Assembly (NCBI GenBank): GCA_945872365.1
Contig: CAMBZJ010000017.1
Span: forward strand, 1-64,000
Reading direction: 5' to 3'
DNA length: 64,000 bases
DNA from: Klebsiella pneumoniae
Lineage (GTDB): Bacteria; Desulfobacterota; Binatia; UBA12015
Under the pieces are notes generated by a model. That model had not been told where the DNA came from. It was given only the letters and a program-made list of their open reading frames with translations, and did not search any database. Below are positions 53,935-64,000 of the stretch, piece after piece; within the stretch, counting starts at the first letter, position 1, and each line of letters starts with the position of its first letter. The position numbers were made by a program, and so were the translations under genes.

Positions 53935-54119
53935 GGGTCGGCCACGTGTGGATAATCCCCTATTGACCGCACCTTGCAACAGGGGTGTGGTGGGGCGGTC
54001 GCGAGCGGGCCCGGGCCTGCGCCCGGGGCGCCGGGCAAGCCTCGCCCGGTGCATGAGAAGTGCGCGAAACAACGATAGAATCCCGGAGGCGGACGTTGAT
54101 TTTCGAGGGTCGGAAAGCG

Positions 54120-56147
54120 ATGCGGATCGATTCGAGATCGAGGCTTCGGAGAACGCTCCTGCTGTGCGGGCTGCTGGTGCTCGTGCCGGGCGTTGCCCGC
54201 GCCTGGCGAAGCTCGCTCCCGGGAGTCGGGATGGCGCGTGCCGTCGCCGTCGAAGCCGACGGCCGGGTCGTCGCCGCCGGCGAGATCGCGGGCACGGGCG
54301 AGACGCTGTTTTCCGTCGCGCTCTTCGACGCGCTCGCGGGTACGTCGATCTGGCGCAAGGACGTCGCCGCCGGCGAGGCGACCGGGATCGCCCTCGACGC
54401 CGCGGGTGACATCCTCGCCTCCGGCTTCATCGGTTCGAAGGATGGCGCTGGGATCGTCAAACTCGACGACCTGACCGGCAACGAATCGTGGCGCTTCCGC
54501 GTTCCGCGTTCGGTCGTTTTTCCCGGCCGGAGCGTGGCCGCCGGGCGCGCCGTCAACGGCGACGGCCTGCTCGCGATCGGCCGCACGAGCGTCGCCGGCG
54601 ACCGCGTCCGCACGATCGTCTACCGACTGGGCAACGCGTCGGGTGCCGTCGTGTGGCGCAAGAATCTCGGCAAGCGCATCGCGCTCGAAATCGCGCCCGA
54701 CTCCAACGGCGACGTGATCGTCGCCGTCGCCGAGAAGAACCCCTCGCAGGGCAGCGGCATCCCCGGACCGCAGGACCCCGCGAAGATCTACAAGCTCAAC
54801 CGCGCGACCGGCGCCGTTCTCTGGGGCGCCTCTCCGGGCCTGCGCGCCGAGGATCTCCTGGCCGTGGTGACGACGACCGACGACGTGGTCGTCGCGGGTC
54901 GTCCGGATCTCGACGGGTCGGCCACCGTGGTCGCGCTCGCCAAACTGACCGGCCGGGAGCAGTGGCGCCGCGTGGTCGGCGGCAGCGGCGCGATCCACCT
55001 TGCCGCGGGCCCCGACGGCTACGTCGTGGTCGCCGTGGACCAGGCCGGCCCGCTGGCTGGAGCGCAGGTCGCCCGTCTCGCCGCCGCCGACGGCGCCCCG
55101 GTGTGGGATCAGGCGATCGATTCCGGCTCCGGGACGTCCTGCGGCGCCGCGGCGTTCTTCGTCACGCCGGCTGGAAACCCGATTCTCGGCGGGTGCGTCT
55201 CGTCGCCGCCGGCCGCCGACTTCCGCTTCCAGTTGACGAGTCTCTCCGGCGCCAAGGGCCAACTGCGCTGGCGTCGGGGGATCGACGGCCTGTCGCCCGA
55301 CCTGCTCGCCGTGTCGCTGCCGGTTCGGGCGATCGCGGCCGACCAAAGCGGCAACCTGGTCGCGGCGGGCGGTGCTGCGGACGGTACCGCGGCGCCGGCG
55401 TTCACGGTCGTCAAGTGGAACGACGATCGCGGCGACGACCTGCTGCTGCCCGCGGAGCGCACCTGCCGCGCGACGATCGTCTCGGCGGCCCGCAACTACA
55501 TCTTCACCCGCCTGCAGACGGTCGAGAGTTGCCGCGACCGCATCAACGCGGGGCTGCTCGACCTCGGGTTCGACGAGTGCGCGAAGGACTCGTCCTACGC
55601 GAACACGATGAAGCGCCTGACCACCCGGACGCGGAACTCAATCGTCTCGGATTGTGCGGGGCCGAACCTGCCCGAGGGCGTCTCCTGCGGCAGGACGATC
55701 GACGAACTGCTGAACGAGCCGAAGACGAGCGGGCAGGTGGGCTGCCTTCTCGACACCGACGACCAGGTCGGAGACGAAATCGCCGACACGGTGTATGCGA
55801 AGTCGCTCACGGGCACTCCGGCCGCGGTGCGTTCCTGCCAGACGGCCATCGGAACCGCGGGACGGCGCATCTTCGACACGGTCATGAGCGCGGCCGTCGA
55901 CTGCCGTGCCCGGGGTGCCGGCGATCTCTCCGAGTGCGAGGGGACGGCGGGCTTCGAGCAGCCGATCCTCGACAATGCCCTCGCACAGCGCGGCCGCATC
56001 GCGAGCAATTGCACGACGGCGAATCTGGCCGCGACGGGCACCTGCGCCGCGACGCTCGACGGGTTGATCGCCCCGACGGGCACCTCCGGTTGCCTCCTGG
56101 AGGTATCGAGGAGGGGCGCGATTCGCGCGGCCAGGGCGCAGGACTGA
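54120..56147 (+). CDS. Secreted beta-propeller with duplicated Cys-rich C-terminal domain
   Basis: 675 residues from the ATG at 54120. A signal peptide (1-28, LLVLVPGVARA) precedes six or seven PQQ-like propeller repeats, each with a core such as AVAVEADGRVVAAGEIAGTG and an aromatic W (IWRKDVAAGEATGIALDAAG). From Cys449 the sequence changes to a Cys-rich helical region made of two related halves (about 449-556 and 573-665). Each has a start C-x4-IG/VSAA, a mid Cys group and a G-C-LL end (GQVGCLLDTD and GTSGCLLEVS). The gene is followed after 22 nt by the giant beta-helix gene. The enzymatic role is unknown. Confidence 0.8.
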   Translation: MRIDSRSRLRRTLLLCGLLVLVPGVARAWRSSLPGVGMARAVAVEADGRVVAAGEIAGTGETLFSVALFDALAGTSIWRKDVAAGEATGIALDAAGDILASGFIGSKDGAGIVKLDDLTGNESWRFRVPRSVVFPGRSVAAGRAVNGDGLLAIGRTSVAGDRVRTIVYRLGNASGAVVWRKNLGKRIALEIAPDSNGDVIVAVAEKNPSQGSGIPGPQDPAKIYKLNRATGAVLWGASPGLRAEDLLAVVTTTDDVVVAGRPDLDGSATVVALAKLTGREQWRRVVGGSGAIHLAAGPDGYVVVAVDQAGPLAGAQVARLAAADGAPVWDQAIDSGSGTSCGAAAFFVTPAGNPILGGCVSSPPAADFRFQLTSLSGAKGQLRWRRGIDGLSPDLLAVSLPVRAIAADQSGNLVAAGGAADGTAAPAFTVVKWNDDRGDDLLLPAERTCRATIVSAARNYIFTRLQTVESCRDRINAGLLDLGFDECAKDSSYANTMKRLTTRTRNSIVSDCAGPNLPEGVSCGRTIDELLNEPKTSGQVGCLLDTDDQVGDEIADTVYAKSLTGTPAAVRSCQTAIGTAGRRIFDTVMSAAVDCRARGAGDLSECEGTAGFEQPILDNALAQRGRIASNCTTANLAATGTCAATLDGLIAPTGTSGCLLEVSRRGAIRAARAQD

Positions 56148-56169: not shown

Positions 56170-59100
56170 GTGAACACCCTCCGTGGAGCGCTCGATCGCC
56201 GGGGCCGCCGACCGAGGCCCCTGCGCGCCGTGCTGGTCGTCGCGGCCCTACTCGCGTCGCTCCGGCCGGGGGCGGCCCATGCGCTCGAGTTCTGGGTCGA
56301 CGGGGCCTCTGGCAGCGACGCGCGATCGCTCATCCAGGCGCAGTCCGCCGCGACTCCGTGGAAGACAATCGGCCATGCTCTCGCGACGGTGACGGCAGGC
56401 CACACCATCCGGGTACGCCCCGGGGTCTACCCGGAGCCGCTCGAATCGCAGTCGGCCGGGGTCTCCCTGGTCGCCGACGGTGCCCCGGGATCGGTGGTGG
56501 TCATGGTGGCGACCGGCGTCACCGCTCTCCTGGTACGGCACCCCGATTTCCTCGTCTCGGGTGTCTCCTTCCAGGGGGGATTGCGCGGTGTGCGCTCGAT
56601 CGGTGCCGCTCGACTCGTCGTCCGCGACGCGGTGGTCGCCGGGCACTCGGGGGACGCGGTCGTCCTAGACACGAGCCCGGGCGCGCGTCTCGAACGAGTG
56701 TCGACCACGGGCGGAAAGAACGGCATCCGCGTGACGGCCTCGCCCGGCCTGGGGATCGTCGACCTCGACGTCTCGGGTCATTCCGGCGACGGGGTTGCGA
56801 TCGCGACGAGTGGCGGGACGACGGCCGACGGCATCGCCCTCGCGGGCGGCGCGCGCGGCTTCGTGCTCTCGGGCAGTGATGCGAGCGTCGTCCACGACCT
56901 GCTCGTCGATCGTGGCACGGCCGTGCTCGGCGTGGACGTGGCGATCGACACGAGCGCCGGGGTGCAGTTCGAGAAACTCGAATCGAGGGGCGGGGCGGCG
57001 GCCTTCTTCGCGGATCGCTGCCCCGACCTGGGTCTGCGCGACTTCTCGGCGAAGGCTCCAGCGGACGCAGCCATCGACCTGTCGGCGAGTCCGCGCGCAA
57101 CGCTCGAGCGGGTCGTCGTCGCCGGGGGCGTCACCGCCGTAAGTCTCGCCGAGGGCGCCGGCTCGACGGTCCGCGACGCGACGGTCTCGGAGATTTCGGG
57201 AGTCGGCTTCTCGATCGGGACGAGCCCGAACTCGACGATCGAGCGTGCGACCCTTTCCGGTGGCACGACCGCGTTCGCGGTGACGGCGAGCGATGGCCTG
57301 GCGATTCGCAACGCGACGGTCTCGGGGATTTCGCAAGTCGGCTTCTCGATCGGGACGAGCCCGAACTCGACCATCGAGCGCGCGACCGTCGACGCTGGCA
57401 CAACCGCATTCGCGGTGACGGCGAGCGATGGCCTGGCGATCCGCGACGCGACGGTCTCGGGGATTTCGGGGGTCGGTTTCTCGATCGGGGCGAGCCCGAA
57501 CTCGACGATCGAGCGCGCCAGCCTTTTCGGTGGCACGACCGCGTTTGCGGTCACGGCGAGCGATGCCCTGGCGATTCGCGTCGCGACGGTCTCGGGGATT
57601 TCGCAAGTCGGCTTCTCGATCGGGACGAGCCCGAACTCGACGGTCGAGCGCGCGACCCTTTCCGGTGGCACAACCGCATTCGCGGTGACGGCGAGCGATG
57701 CTCTGGCGATCCGCGACGCGACGGTCTCGGGGCATTCCGGCGTCGGGCTCTCGCTCGTCGGAAGCGCCGGCGCGAGCATCGGGAACGCCTCGTTCACGGG
57801 AGGCCGCGACGGTCTCGTGGCGTCCGCATGCGGTGGTCTCTCCGCCACCGGGCTGCACGTCTCCGGGCACTCAGGGGTCGGTGTTTCGCTGCAATCGAGC
57901 CCCGAGTCGGTCTTCGACACGCTGACCCTGTCGGGTGGGGCGCGCGGCTTCGAGGCACTGGAGAGTGACGCCCTGGTGGTGCGCTCCGCGATGATTTCCG
58001 GGCCGCCGGCCGAGAGTTTCGTCCTCGAGGCGAGTTCCGGGGTCCAAGTCGACGGGTTGTCGGTGAGCGGCGGAACCGACGCGATCGTCGCAGATCGCTG
58101 TGCGAGCCTGCAGATGCGGGCGGTGACGGCGTCGGGCCATGCCGCCGCCGGCGTGCTCGTCTCGTCTAGTCCCGCGGCGAACCTCGACGGCGTCACCCTC
58201 TCGGGCGGAACCCGCGGTGTCCGTTTCTCGGCGGGCGACTCCCCGGTGCTGCGCCACGCGACGATCACCGCCGTGAATGGAAGTGCAGTCTCGATCGCCG
58301 ACGCGACCGGACCCCTCGTCGAGGACGTCCGGATCGACGGTTGCGTCGAGGGGCTCGAGATCGAGCGGGGTCCTGCGGCGATCGTGCGTCGACTCGATGT
58401 CTCGGGCGCCCTCGGCACTGCGGCGACCCTGCTCTCGGCGGCCGGCGCCCGCGTCGAGGACTCGAACTTCGACGGGGGCGTGTACGGGTTGCGCGTCGAG
58501 GGAGCCGACGGCGTCGTCGTCGAAGGTTGTCGGTCGGACTCGGCGAGCGTCGATGCGTTCGCGGTCATCGGGTCGGCCCGGCCGACGATCTCGAACTCGA
58601 TTGCGCTTTCGCCTGCCGGCCACGGCATACTGGTCGACCGCAGCCCCGGGGCCTATGTGCGCAACAACCTTGTGGTAGGTGCCCGCGACTGGGGAATCGA
58701 CCTCTCGAACGTCGCAACCCAGGGCGGCATCGCGCCGGTCTCGATCGGCAACGTCGTCGCGTTCAATACCGTAGCGAACTCGGGCGGGGGCTCGGCCGGC
58801 GGGCTTCGCATGCGCAACGCCACCGGGGAAGTGCGCGACAACATCTTCGCGGGCAACACGCCGATCGGACTCCGGCTCGACACCGCGGGGGTGCTCGTCC
58901 ATCACGATCTCGTCTTCGGAAGCGGTACGCCGGTCTCGCCGGAGAACTACGCGATCGGCGGCGGCGTGGTGTGGAGCGATCCGCGCTTCGTCGCGGGCGA
59001 CCCGACCCATCCGTTCGCGCTCGCCCAGGTGGCGGCGGGCCAGGCTGCGGACAGCCCCGCCGTGGATGCGGGATCGGCGGGAACGATCTCGCGCGATATC

Positions 59101-62100
59101 GGTGGCGCGACGCGGACCGACGGCGTGGCCGACACCGGCGTCGCCGACATGGGATTCCACGCCGACGCACCGGCTCCGGGCGGGCCGCCGGAGCCGGTGA
59201 AGCCGACGACGCTGTGGGTCAATTGCGCGACCGGCAACGACACCCGCGGACGCAACCAGGCGGTGTCCTCGCTCGCCCCGCTGTCGACGATCCAGCGTGC
59301 GCTCTCCATCGCGATCGAAGGGGATCGGATCGTCGTCCAGGACGGCACCTGTCCCGAGCGGGCGACGATCGACGTGCCCGGCTTGAGTCTCGAGGCGGAG
59401 AACGTCGGCGGCGTGGTGATCGAGGCCCCGGCCGATCAGGCGGCGATCCGCGTGCGCGCGAGCCGCGTCGCCGTGAGCGGCTTCGTCTTACGCTCCGCCA
59501 AAGAGGGCGTCGTCGTCGCGGCGAAGGACACCTCGACGCGTCTCATGCTGGTCCGCCTCCGCAACCTGCGGGTCGAGGCTCCCGAAGGCGGCACCCTTGC
59601 GACCAACGGAATCCGTCTGGTCGCCGTCGACCGCAGCCGGGTCGAGAGCTGTGAAGTGCACGGGGCCGGCCAACAGGGAATCGTCGCGCGCACGTCGGGG
59701 CGGCTCTGGATCCGCAACAACCTGGTCACCGGCAGTGGCGAGTGGGGCATTCACGTCGACAACGGCGACGGCGCTCCGCCGATCGAGGGCGGCAACGTGG
59801 TCCTCTTCAACACCGTCGACGGCAATGGCGGCAACGGCCCCGGCACCGGCGGTATCCGGCTCCAGAAGGCGACCGGCGAGATCGGCTGGAACATCGTCTC
59901 GTCCAACTTCGGCGCCGGCCTGAAGGCCGATACGGCCCCGACCTGGATTCACCACGTGAATTTCTTCGGCAACGCGGCGTCGATCGTCTCCGAACCACAG
60001 GCCCCGCCGACCGTCTGGTCGCTCGTGCCCGGCGATCCGCTGTTCGTGGACCGCGAGAACGGCGATTTCGCGCTCCGGCAGGTGGAGGCCGGGCAGGCGG
60101 CCGACAGCCCCGCGGTCGACGCGGCCGGGGTGAAGACCGGCAGGGCGCGCATCAAGGGCTCGACGCGCAGCGACGGCGTGAACGACGACGGGATCGCCGA
60201 CCTGGGCTTCCATGCGACCCGCAAGAAGCTCGGCACCAAGCCGGTGCTCGACGTTCCCCCCGAAGACGGCGGGCGCGTGCTCCACGTCGACGGCGCGATG
60301 GGCGACGACGGTCGCACGGCGATCGTGGCGATCGACCCGCAGACCCCCTGGAAGACCATCGCGCGGGCGTTCCAAGCCAACGGCGCACGCACCCGAGACA
60401 CGGTCGTCGTCGCGGCGGGGACCTACGACGGCGGGCTTGCCACGGTCGCTCCCGGCGTCACGCTACGCGCCTCGGGCGCGGTGACGATACTTGCTCCGAG
60501 CGACGGATCGGGGATCTCGGTCGGCCATGCGGACACGGTCGTCGAGGGCTTTCGCTTCGAGGGCGGCCGTCGCGGCGTGACGGCGAGCGGTGCGCCCGGC
60601 CTGGTCCTCCGCAGTTGCACGATCGTCGGCACGAAGAAGGATGCGGTCGTGCTCGATGCGAGTGACGGGGCGCTCGTCGACCACCTCGAGGTCCACGGGG
60701 GTAACGCCCTGCTACGGGTCTCGAATTCCGCGGGCCTCGTCGTGCGCGACCTCTCGGGCGAAGGCCACGAGGACGAGGGCATCGTCCTCTCGGGCAGCGC
60801 GAACGGTCTTCTCGAACGACTTGAGGTCGCCGGTGGCCGGACCGTGGTGGATGCTACGGGTTCGACGGCTCTCGTGATCCGTGACCTAAGCGCGACCGCG
60901 ATCCGCGGCGACGGGCTGATCCTCGTATCGACCGCCCATGCCCGGCTCGAGCGGGTGACCCTCGCGAGCCGTGATGCCGGCCTGCGCGCGACCGATTCGC
61001 CGGGCCTCGTGGTCTCGCATCTCGCGGTCTCGGGCCAGGAGGACGAGGGCGTCGTCCTCGCCGATGGCGGCGGGAGCGTGCTTGAGGACGTGGAGGTGAC
61101 GGGCGGCACACGCGGCTTCGCGGTCGCGAATGCGGCGGATACCCGCCTCGAGCGCGTGACCGTCACCGGCGCGAAGGGGGGTGTGGTCGTCGACGGGTCG
61201 AGTCGCTTCGTGCTGCGCGATGCGACCATCGGGGCCATCCTCGGCAACGGCGTCACGGTCCGGACGAGCCCGGAAGCCGTTCTCGACCGCCTCCACCTCC
61301 AGGTCCGCGATGATGCGCTCGCGATCTCCGACTCAGCCGGGATCTCGGTGAACGACCTCGATGCGAACGGTCACACCGGTGTCGGCGTGACCGTCACCGG
61401 GAGCGCGGACGCCTCGTTGGCGCACCTCGCGATGGGCGGAGGCCGCAGCCTGCTCGCGGCCGCGCTCTCGCCGCGCCTGGCGCTGCGCGACTCGATGGCG
61501 ACCGCGGTTCTCGGCGACGGTGTCAGGCTCGCCACGAGCCCGGGCTCCGTCGTCGAGCGCGTGGTGGTCGGCGTCCGCGACGATTCGCTCTCGCTCGCGG
61601 CGTGCGAGGGCTCGACCGTCCGCGACTTCGCGGCGACGAGCGAGGCCGGTGCGGGTGCGGTCGTGCACGCGAGTGCCGACACGGTGCTCGAACGCGTGCA
61701 CCTGACCGGCGGCGCGGGCCTGCTCTCGGCCTCGCTCTCGCCGCGTCTGGCGCTGCGCGACTCCGGTGCGACCGGGCTGACGGGAGAGGCGCTCGTCCTG
61801 CTCGGCAGCGAGGGCTCGGCCCTCGAGCAGGTCGAGATCGCAGGTGGTACGAACGCGCTTCGCGCAGAGATGTCGCCGGGGCTCATGATCACGGGATTCT
61901 CTGCGCGTGGTCATTCGGGGATCGGGATCGCGCTCTCCGCGGGTGCCGCGACGGAAGTCGAGACGGCCACGCTCGAGGGTGGCAGCGACGGCGTCGTTGC
62001 CGAGGGCTGCCCCGACCTGGTGCTTCGCGAGCTCGACGTGAGGGGTGCGAGCGGGAGCGGCGTCGACTTGAAGGCGAGCGCCCAAGTGGTGATCGAAGAG

Positions 62101-64000
62101 GTCTCGATCGACGGCGGGATCCGCGGTCTGCGGATCGCCGACGGCGCGGGGCTCCGCCTGAGCGACGCCTCGGTCGTGGGCGCGTCCGGCGACGGGATCT
62201 CGCTCGGAGCGAGTTCGGGGGCAGTGCTCGAACGGGTGACCGTCGAGGGTGGCAGCGCCGGCGTCGTGGCCGAAGGCTGCCCCGACCTGGTGCTTCGCGA
62301 GCTCGACGTGAGGGGTGCGATCGGGAGCGGCGTGGACTTGAAGGCGAGCGCCCAAGTCGTGATCGAAGGGGTCTCGATCGACGGTGGGATCCGCGGACTG
62401 CGGATCGCCGACGGTGCGGGGCTCCGCCTGAGCGACGCCTCGGTCGTGGGCGCGTCCGACGACGGGATCTCGCTCGGAGCGAGCTCGGGGGCAGTGCTCG
62501 AACGGGTCACCGTCGAGGGTGGCAACGACGGCATCGTCGCCGAAGGCTGCCCCGACCTGGTGCTCCGCGACATCGACGTCTCGTCGCACGACGGCAACGG
62601 CGCAGGTCTGGGTGCGTGCCCGCGAGCGATTGTCGAACGCATCCGGACGGCGGGCGGCAGCCATGGCCTGCGCGGGGAGGGCGTCGCCGGGATCGCGTTG
62701 CGCGACGGCGACTTCTCGGACTCGGACAGCGACGCCATCCTGCTCGTCGACGCCGCAGGAGCCCTAGTCGATGGGAACCGGGTCGACGGCGCCGGCGCGG
62801 GCGGCATCGTGATCGACGGCGCGTACGGCGCCTACGTGCACAACAACCGGATCGGGTCGATCGGCGACTGGGGCATCTCGATCGGCAATCCGACCTCCCC
62901 GTCACCGGCGAGGCTCGACGGTAACGTGGTCGCCTTCAACACCGTCTGGCAGGCGGGGCTCGCGTCCTCGTCGGCCGGCGGCGTGCGTTTCGAGAATGCC
63001 TCGGGCGAGATCCGCGACAACGTCGTCGTGGCGGCGGCGGGCAGCGTGGTGAAGACCGACCTGGCGCCGAGCGTGGTGCACCACAACGTCCTGTTCGGCG
63101 GCGCCCGCAGCTTCGACTCCAAGTCGGGGCAGGAGCCGGTTCGGCGGGCGAACCGGGTAGCCGATCCCCTGTTCGTCGCACCCGCCGGCTTCGATTTCGC
63201 GCTCCGGCAGACGGCGGCGGGGCAGGGGGCCGACAGCCCGGCCCGCGACGCGGGCTCCGGTCCGGTCTCGACTGCGGACATCGCCGGCACGACGCGGAGC
63301 GACGCGGTCCCCGATGCGGGACTCGCCGACGCCGGCTGGCATGCACTCGCACCGGCCGCGTCGATGCCGGCGCCGGCGATCGCGTTCACCTCGGGCCCCG
63401 GCCTCGGGAATGTCCTCTTCGTCGACCCGGCCGCCGGCGACGACTCGCGCGACTACGACACCGCGCAGGAGATCGTGACTCCTTGGCGGAGCGTTGCGCG
63501 GGCAATGCAGCTCGCCCGTCCCGGCGACGTGGTGGCGCTCGGTGCCGGCGTGTACGCCGGGTCGATCGAGATTCCCGACGACGCAATCACGCTGCGCGGA
63601 ACCGGTCCACGCGGCGGGTCGGTGGTGCAGCCGGCCGACGGCGAGCCCGGGATCGTCGTCGAAGGCAAGGCCGACGTCCAGATCGAGGACCTCGCGATCG
63701 AGGGCGGTTCGTACGGCGTCCTCGCGACGGCGGCCGACGGGCTGCGGCTCCGCCGGGTGGCCGCGGTCGTTCCGGCCTTCGTCGGCATCGATGTACGCGA
63801 CACCGCCGACGTCTTCGTCGACGGTTGCATCGTGACCGGGGCGGGTTCACACGGTATCGCGCTGCGGCGCAGCACGGGCTACGTCCACAACGACCTCGTC
63901 TATGCGAATGGGGAGTGGGGCATCTCGATCGACAACTCGGGGGCGTCCGAGCCGCTCTCTGGCATCGCGGTCGCTTTCAACACGGTGCACGGCAACGGCA
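56170..64000 (+). CDS. Giant secreted right-handed beta-helix protein, C-terminus beyond window
   Basis: An uninterrupted frame from the GTG at 56170 to the window end, at least 2,610 residues. A signal peptide covers 1-38 (LVVAALLASLRPGAAHA). Four modules each open with a [WH]V-D/N-x-A-x-GxDxR motif and a PWKTI-type segment (residues ~40, 1016, 1370 and 2415) and then fold as parallel beta-helix coils. Modules A-C close with a choice-of-anchor Q-like part (LxQxxAGQxADSPAxDAG then DxGxxH) near 998, 1346 and 2393. The third module is very long. Many coils read ATVSGISQVGFSIGTSPN or similar. No stop or anchor is seen, so surface attachment is unknown. Confidence 0.88.
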   Translation, partial: MNTLRGALDRRGRRPRPLRAVLVVAALLASLRPGAAHALEFWVDGASGSDARSLIQAQSAATPWKTIGHALATVTAGHTIRVRPGVYPEPLESQSAGVSLVADGAPGSVVVMVATGVTALLVRHPDFLVSGVSFQGGLRGVRSIGAARLVVRDAVVAGHSGDAVVLDTSPGARLERVSTTGGKNGIRVTASPGLGIVDLDVSGHSGDGVAIATSGGTTADGIALAGGARGFVLSGSDASVVHDLLVDRGTAVLGVDVAIDTSAGVQFEKLESRGGAAAFFADRCPDLGLRDFSAKAPADAAIDLSASPRATLERVVVAGGVTAVSLAEGAGSTVRDATVSEISGVGFSIGTSPNSTIERATLSGGTTAFAVTASDGLAIRNATVSGISQVGFSIGTSPNSTIERATVDAGTTAFAVTASDGLAIRDATVSGISGVGFSIGASPNSTIERASLFGGTTAFAVTASDALAIRVATVSGISQVGFSIGTSPNSTVERATLSGGTTAFAVTASDALAIRDATVSGHSGVGLSLVGSAGASIGNASFTGGRDGLVASACGGLSATGLHVSGHSGVGVSLQSSPESVFDTLTLSGGARGFEALESDALVVRSAMISGPPAESFVLEASSGVQVDGLSVSGGTDAIVADRCASLQMRAVTASGHAAAGVLVSSSPAANLDGVTLSGGTRGVRFSAGDSPVLRHATITAVNGSAVSIADATGPLVEDVRIDGCVEGLEIERGPAAIVRRLDVSGALGTAATLLSAAGARVEDSNFDGGVYGLRVEGADGVVVEGCRSDSASVDAFAVIGSARPTISNSIALSPAGHGILVDRSPGAYVRNNLVVGARDWGIDLSNVATQGGIAPVSIGNVVAFNTVANSGGGSAGGLRMRNATGEVRDNIFAGNTPIGLRLDTAGVLVHHDLVFGSGTPVSPENYAIGGGVVWSDPRFVAGDPTHPFALAQVAAGQAADSPAVDAGSAGTISRDIGGATRTDGVADTGVADMGFHADAPAPGGPPEPVKPTTLWVNCATGNDTRGRNQAVSSLAPLSTIQRALSIAIEGDRIVVQDGTCPERATIDVPGLSLEAENVGGVVIEAPADQAAIRVRASRVAVSGFVLRSAKEGVVVAAKDTSTRLMLVRLRNLRVEAPEGGTLATNGIRLVAVDRSRVESCEVHGAGQQGIVARTSGRLWIRNNLVTGSGEWGIHVDNGDGAPPIEGGNVVLFNTVDGNGGNGPGTGGIRLQKATGEIGWNIVSSNFGAGLKADTAPTWIHHVNFFGNAASIVSEPQAPPTVWSLVPGDPLFVDRENGDFALRQVEAGQAADSPAVDAAGVKTGRARIKGSTRSDGVNDDGIADLGFHATRKKLGTKPVLDVPPEDGGRVLHVDGAMGDDGRTAIVAIDPQTPWKTIARAFQANGARTRDTVVVAAGTYDGGLATVAPGVTLRASGAVTILAPSDGSGISVGHADTVVEGFRFEGGRRGVTASGAPGLVLRSCTIVGTKKDAVVLDASDGALVDHLEVHGGNALLRVSNSAGLVVRDLSGEGHEDEGIVLSGSANGLLERLEVAGGRTVVDATGSTALVIRDLSATAIRGDGLILVSTAHARLERVTLASRDAGLRATDSPGLVVSHLAVSGQEDEGVVLADGGGSVLEDVEVTGGTRGFAVANAADTRLERVTVTGAKGGVVVDGSSRFVLRDATIGAILGNGVTVRTSPEAVLDRLHLQVRDDALAISDSAGISVNDLDANGHTGVGVTVTGSADASLAHLAMGGGRSLLAAALSPRLALRDSMATAVLGDGVRLATSPGSVVERVVVGVRDDSLSLAACEGSTVRDFAATSEAGAGAVVHASADTVLERVHLTGGAGLLSASLSPRLALRDSGATGLTGEALVLLGSEGSALEQVEIAGGTNALRAEMSPGLMITGFSARGHSGIGIALSAGAATEVETATLEGGSDGVVAEGCPDLVLRELDVRGASGSGVDLKASAQVVIEEVSIDGGIRGLRIADGAGLRLSDASVVGASGDGISLGASSGAVLERVTVEGGSAGVVAEGCPDLVLRELDVRGAIGSGVDLKASAQVVIEGVSIDGGIRGLRIADGAGLRLSDASVVGASDDGISLGASSGAVLERVTVEGGNDGIVAEGCPDLVLRDIDVSSHDGNGAGLGACPRAIVERIRTAGGSHGLRGEGVAGIALRDGDFSDSDSDAILLVDAAGALVDGNRVDGAGAGGIVIDGAYGAYVHNNRIGSIGDWGISIGNPTSPSPARLDGNVVAFNTVWQAGLASSSAGGVRFENASGEIRDNVVVAAAGSVVKTDLAPSVVHHNVLFGGARSFDSKSGQEPVRRANRVADPLFVAPAGFDFALRQTAAGQGADSPARDAGSGPVSTADIAGTTRSDAVPDAGLADAGWHALAPAASMPAPAIAFTSGPGLGNVLFVDPAAGDDSRDYDTAQEIVTPWRSVARAMQLARPGDVVALGAGVYAGSIEIPDDAITLRGTGPRGGSVVQPADGEPGIVVEGKADVQIEDLAIEGGSYGVLATAADGLRLRRVAAVVPAFVGIDVRDTADVFVDGCIVTGAGSHGIALRRSTGYVHNDLVYANGEWGISIDNSGASEPLSGIAVAFNTVHGNG
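57181..57720 (+). repeat. Four tandem 135-bp repeats in the beta-helix gene
   Basis: Units start at 57181, 57316, 57451 and 57586, each beginning ACGGTCTCGG and 45 codons long, about two beta-helix coils. Units 2 and 4 share special variants, as do units 1 and 3, showing a 270-bp higher-order period. A fifth, diverged unit begins at 57721. Confidence 0.9.
61981..62580 (+). repeat. Tandem 270-bp repeats in the beta-helix gene
   Basis: Two complete units (61981-62250 and 62251-62520) differ at about 13 positions by eye, and a third, partial unit runs from 62521 to about 62580. Each unit encodes 90 residues, about four coils. The period equals twice the 135-bp unit of the first array. Confidence 0.9.

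Follow-up and report, generated by a model that had tools for sequence, protein, structure and literature searches.

A giant exported protein of five beta-helix rods in series, with a probable history of module duplication, module loss and coil expansion

Does an open frame that runs off the end of a stretch of G+C-rich DNA encode one real protein, and how would such a chain have come to hold several complete beta-helix units? The question arises in the window analysed here, a 64,000-nucleotide stretch (positions 1-64000 of a contig of 68,572 bases), in which a giant gene starts with GTG at 56170 on the plus strand and continues beyond the last base. A preliminary description of the window had reported a single frame of more than 2,610 residues. 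This is borne out, as the downstream sequence of the same contig carries the frame to its true stop at 65473-65475, which rules out a misread gene end and gives a protein of 3,101 amino acids with its true C-terminus. Since long open frames alone prove little in G+C-rich DNA, the G+C content of each codon position is an important test; for the giant gene it is 0.715/0.544/0.868 and steady across the whole gene. An antisense frame of 2,688 aa overlapping the giant gene of a relative (L006 1-8064, minus strand) is a reminder that frame length in such DNA is no evidence of a gene. Homologous frames without internal stops are present in all 13 other examined genomes of the family, several of them ending at contig ends, so the giant gene is no frameshift artefact. 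Codon-position signal and homologues together rule out an open-frame artefact of G+C-rich DNA. The giant gene is real and codes for an exported protein of five beta-helix rods in series, with the following features (window coordinates unless stated).

54060..56147, plus strand: PQQ-type beta-propeller gene (PQQ_2, 64.4 bits), ending 22 bp upstream of the giant gene
56170..56283, plus strand: signal peptide, aa 1-38, with an Arg-rich n-region, the core VLVVAALLASL and AHA before the first opening (read by eye)
56290..59163, plus strand: module 1 (M1, T1 type), aa 41-998; Beta_helix 167.5 bits, DUF1565 22.5 bits, lag-45 autocorrelation
57170..57732, plus strand: recent tandem repeats in M1, 4.2 copies of a 135-bp unit (TRF, L005 1170-1732, 87% matches)
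59164..59205, plus strand: linker between M1 and M2 (DAPAPGGPPEPVKP), from sequence reading
59200..60216, plus strand: module 2 (M2, T4 type), aa 1011-1349; Beta_helix 33.5 bits, AF2 model
60259..63345, plus strand: module 3 (M3, T5 type), aa 1364-2392; Beta_helix 159.9 bits, DUF1565 22.8 bits, lag 45/90 autocorrelation
61973..62579, plus strand: recent tandem repeats in M3, 2.2 copies of a 270-bp unit (TRF, L005 5973-6579, 94% matches)
63415..64000 and on to contig position 64407, plus strand: module 4 (M4, T6 type), aa 2416-2746; Beta_helix 53.5 bits, DUF1565 21.1 bits
Contig 64471-65472, outside the window, plus strand: module 5 (M5, T7 type), aa 2768-3101; Beta_helix 40.5 bits

Signal peptidase I cleavage is likely after ...GAAHA. 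Opening motifs stand at aa ~43, 1017, 1372, 2418 and 2770 (n = 5), and the closing motif D[AMLV]G[FWV]H at aa 993, 1344, 2387, 2741 and 3096 (n = 5; four internal). The preliminary description had counted at least three and a half units with three internal closings; repetition and internal closings stand, but the full frame raises the counts to five modules and to four internal closings, five overall. Its module lengths of about 960, 330 and 1,020 residues were right, and so was its view of one polypeptide repeating complete secreted beta-helix units, each module having its own opening, closing and Pfam match. Linkers between modules are 14 to 24 residues long and mostly Pro/Ala-rich; when inspected for signal-peptide remnants they show none, and no internal signal peptide was seen.

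Domain models were run on each module separately. All five pass PF13229 (Beta_helix; curated cut-off 25.9 bits) with the scores listed above. DUF1565 (PF07602), which is located at the module start and scores 41.9 bits for the in-window frame, is passed at its cut-off of 20.3 bits by M1, M3 and M4; M2 scores 13.7 and M5 18.2 bits. Modelled by AF2 with 14 related modules, M2 forms one right-handed beta-helix (pLDDT 84.4, pTM 0.82), with a closing part of low confidence (pLDDT about 50). A model of aa 180-1349 (1,170 residues; pLDDT 84.6, pTM 0.55) has two helices with a weak closing and linker stretch between them, the first being long (M1) and the second starting with its own small helical cap. 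Two of the checks proposed at the outset, per-module models and structure prediction, support separate helical modules.

The closing segments had been likened to choice-of-anchor endings, and their internal position had been taken as unusual. The likeness holds but membership of the choice-of-anchor Q model (NF041518) does not: only M1 is listed, and its 12.4 bits fall short of the cut-off of 25, while M2 to M5 are not listed at E values up to 10, and a genome scan with the choice-of-anchor Q model gave no match at the giant-gene locus. Nor is the internal position exceptional, as other frames in the phylum carry several choice-of-anchor Q matches. One frame of 1,989 aa (L062) has three of them together with three Beta_helix stretches, and another of about 3,960 residues (L063) has three choice-of-anchor Q closings. 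Proteins that combine PF13229/PF07602 with an NF041518 closing share with the giant the fold, a DUF1565-like opening and a similar kind of closing; in the giant, however, the closings fall below the cut-off, no anchor follows and five modules lie in one chain. The C-terminus ends at the closing segment ...LDLGVHR, with no hydrophobic or LPxTG tail. A literature search on choice-of-anchor Q found no papers. The segment is predicted with low confidence; it would form the cap, or C-terminal portion, of each rod and not a surface anchor. As a caution, a closing that looks like a choice-of-anchor domain can simply be what ends a beta-helix module, recurring within a chain.

What might such rods do? 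The protein is acidic (net charge about -118, calculated pI 4.8) with a mass of about 307 kDa. Structural neighbours of the M2 model reach Z scores of 23 to 28 over 233 to 274 residues to beta-helix chains, led by the alginate lyase 6kfn (Z 28.2) and the GH136 enzyme 5gqc (Z 28.0), followed by the alginate epimerase/lyase 8jaz (Z 27.6) and Pel9A 1ru4 (Z 26.6); by enzyme name, the closest solved structures (Z 24-28) include alginate lyase, lacto-N-biosidase, alginate epimerase, the pectate lyase Pel9A and NosD. Foldseek TM-scores are modest (0.3-0.6), and VIA-align was used as a second comparison. Most of the solved folds nearest to this predicted model are beta-helices that act on polysaccharide. 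Sequence-profile matches go largely to the same enzyme classes, the best of them spanning only part of a module. A shared beta-helix fold alone is no proof of glycan action. By analogy of fold and closest relatives, we consider it probable that the product is exported and rod-like, and that this acidic protein binds polysaccharide or processes it.

A role as adhesin or spacer on the cell surface, in which rod length would count more than any ligand, is possible, though we hold it unlikely. Coil number varies in strict register between species of one genus and module number varies from five to eight, as such a role would allow, and adhesin-like proteins of the gut methanogens Methanobrevibacter smithii and Methanosphaera stadtmanae carry up to seven beta-helix domains, with very long single helices (1,236 aa; PMC11532034). 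These proteins and the giant alike have several right-handed beta-helix domains per exported protein, whereas the archaeal ones have membrane-anchoring and mostly archaeal Big domains (PMC11532034) and the giant consists of beta-helix modules only, with no anchor, each module having its own opening and closing segment. A search of the giant for these archaeal features gave no membrane-anchoring or Big Pfam match and no anchor-like hydrophobic C-terminal stretch. More generally, a membrane or sorting anchor was sought at both ends of the mature protein and none was found, so that a partner would be needed for retention on the cell. Among bacteria, Apilactobacillus kunkeei has the giant exported surface proteins Giant1-5, of which Giant1-4 have a beta-solenoid domain and which are paralogues that arose by duplication (PMC12863079). 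They resemble the focal giant in size, export, solenoid and duplication, but in them a single N-terminal solenoid leads into a long rod built from alpha-helical repeats, and the host is Gram-positive (PMC12863079).

It is more doubtful that the giant is a multi-domain polysaccharide lyase, epimerase or glycosidase with several catalytic modules. Modular mannuronan epimerases and two-domain PL6 lyases are known to carry more than one catalytic module per chain, and the A-module of AlgE4/AlgE6 and the two-domain PL6 lyase AlyGC have beta-helix modules like those of the giant in size and fold. The top structural and profile matches are such enzymes, and R176 N177, R218, R227 D228 N229 and H250 are among the polar columns that are conserved in the module model. 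Against this, Gly, Pro and residues of the closing segment account for many of the positions under the strictest conservation, the enlarged M1 and M3 resemble structural expansion, and no enzyme family model searched with the frame and the modules reaches its cut-off. YGFDPH, the active-site motif of the mannuronan C5-epimerase AlgE A-module, was searched for in the giant and is absent, and no R-modules are recognised. Three other family assignments were tried and rejected: NosD (TIGR04247; cut-off 300), with 151.3 bits for the in-window frame and at most 69 per module; the LIC10774/LIC10365 surface protein family (NF047854; cut-off 380), with 41.8 bits for the same frame; and mycofactocin families, whose matches lie below cut-off.

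Two of the five modules are far longer than the others, and their residue sequence is periodic. In both M1 and M3 the autocorrelation is highest at lags of 45 and 90 residues, with 39% identity at the better one, whereas the maxima of shuffled sequences stay below a score of zero. The sequence fits rows of 45, almost gapless, for about 14 to 16 rows. Each 45-residue unit corresponds to two coils of 22.5 residues; the 135-bp unit of M1 thereby encodes 45 aa and two coils, and the 270-bp unit of M3 90 aa and four coils. The excess length amounts to 623 residues in M1 and 690 in M3. In a congener (L006/L042), M1 and M3 are enlarged as well, M1 by about 346 residues and M3 by about 400, while other genera lack such large arrays, a modest insert in module 2 being present in L040 and L048. 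These patterns indicate that the unequal module lengths arise from in-register coil duplication within the focal genus, and the great lengths of M1 and M3 would then not stem from different donor genes. The gene in L006 is 71-77% identical per module to the focal gene, and a genome search places it in the same genus; its record label, Alphaproteobacteria bacterium, is probably wrong.

To see how the modules themselves are related, we turn to the relatives. The search matched all 13 other examined genomes of the family, several copies being cut by contig ends. Complete copies in other genera split, by module profile, into seven or eight modules of about 350 residues each. In the module tree, which covers six genera, modules cluster by their position in the chain and not by genome, which implies that the array is older than the family and was inherited as a unit. 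With the chain of L040 as reference (T1-T8), the focal chain holds the types T1, T4, T5, T6 and T7. All five other genera show T3, and four of these show T8; both types are missing from the focal genus. A tree of the concatenated shared modules groups the focal genus with g2 and g3 (91/94), nested within lineages that all keep T3, so that loss of two module types in the focal genus is the simplest account on grounds of parsimony. The sister types T3 and T4 are adjacent in the chain, as expected under tandem duplication. Across 58 sampled genomes of the class, full-strength module matches (E below 1e-60) are confined to the family. Two shorter frames were also noted: a stand-alone frame of 854 aa within the family (L055 5822-8383) and one of 745 aa from another family of the class (L066). 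The modules of both nest inside the giant-protein module clade, a pattern suggesting that modules passed between genes at least once, by module exchange or gene transfer.

As judged from these sequence comparisons, it is well supported that the rods reflect ancient duplication followed by loss and internal stretching, and recent whole-gene fusion is not supported. End-to-end fusion of whole secreted one-module genes, the mode of growth first proposed, is very improbable: every module is complete with opening and closing, and the modules of the 854- and 745-aa superfamily relatives nest in the module tree, as fusion might predict, but against it stand the positional orthology across six genera, the adjacency of T3 and T4, the 45-residue expansion, the linkers free of signal-peptide remnants, a focal genome in which a search for a free-standing single-module donor gene found none, and the loss of modules in the focal genus.

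The locus has a history of its own. Relatives have the giant gene flanked by a divergent secreted-protein gene on one side and fabI on the other, some with one extra gene before fabI. The same neighbourhood is found in order on another contig of the focal genome (C13; L061 9706-12081) with the giant gene missing, and at the ancestral site only about 390 bases (L061 10518-10906) separate the secreted-protein gene from the small gene preceding fabI. With the site beside fabI empty, the giant gene has moved. At its present place it is perhaps co-transcribed with the PQQ-type gene, and a PhyH gene lies downstream on the same contig (C17); L007, from another genome of the genus, also has a PhyH gene close to its homologue. 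The unnamed conserved neighbours in relatives match no Pfam family and so give no explanation of function. Beyond the window, at the contig end (L005 11038-12570), a frame cut by the contig end carries a CBM_2 cellulose-binding domain after a long Thr-Pro linker.

Taken together, architecture and history are well supported, and the giant is a new protein of a known sort, multi-beta-helix proteins being already known, with an instructive history. In the explanation that we favour, the chain would be exported by Sec and lose its signal peptide, and the mature protein would fold into five independent right-handed parallel beta-helix rods on short, mostly Pro/Ala-rich linkers. Two GspD-type secretins above cut-off in the focal genome make a type II route possible, and the protein may leave the cell by this putative path. 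Rod faces would bind, or in some modules process, polysaccharide as part of a surface or matrix. Growth would have proceeded at two levels: whole modules duplicated in an ancestor of the family, after which they were retained or lost according to position, and individual rods lengthened as 45-residue, two-coil units duplicated in tandem and kept the helical register. A bolder proposal, which we put forward only tentatively and think unlikely, is that these family-wide giants have rods tuned in length by two-coil duplication, with module number and coil number evolving independently of each other and together encoding size and ligand for a polysaccharide matrix, the gene of the focal genus having fewer modules, more coils and a new locus. 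With five to eight modules over six genera, and large coil arrays in M1 and M3 in the focal genus only, the family offers a natural series that lets one ask how beta-helix proteins grow, on one scale by duplication and loss of modules and on another by in-register duplication of coils.
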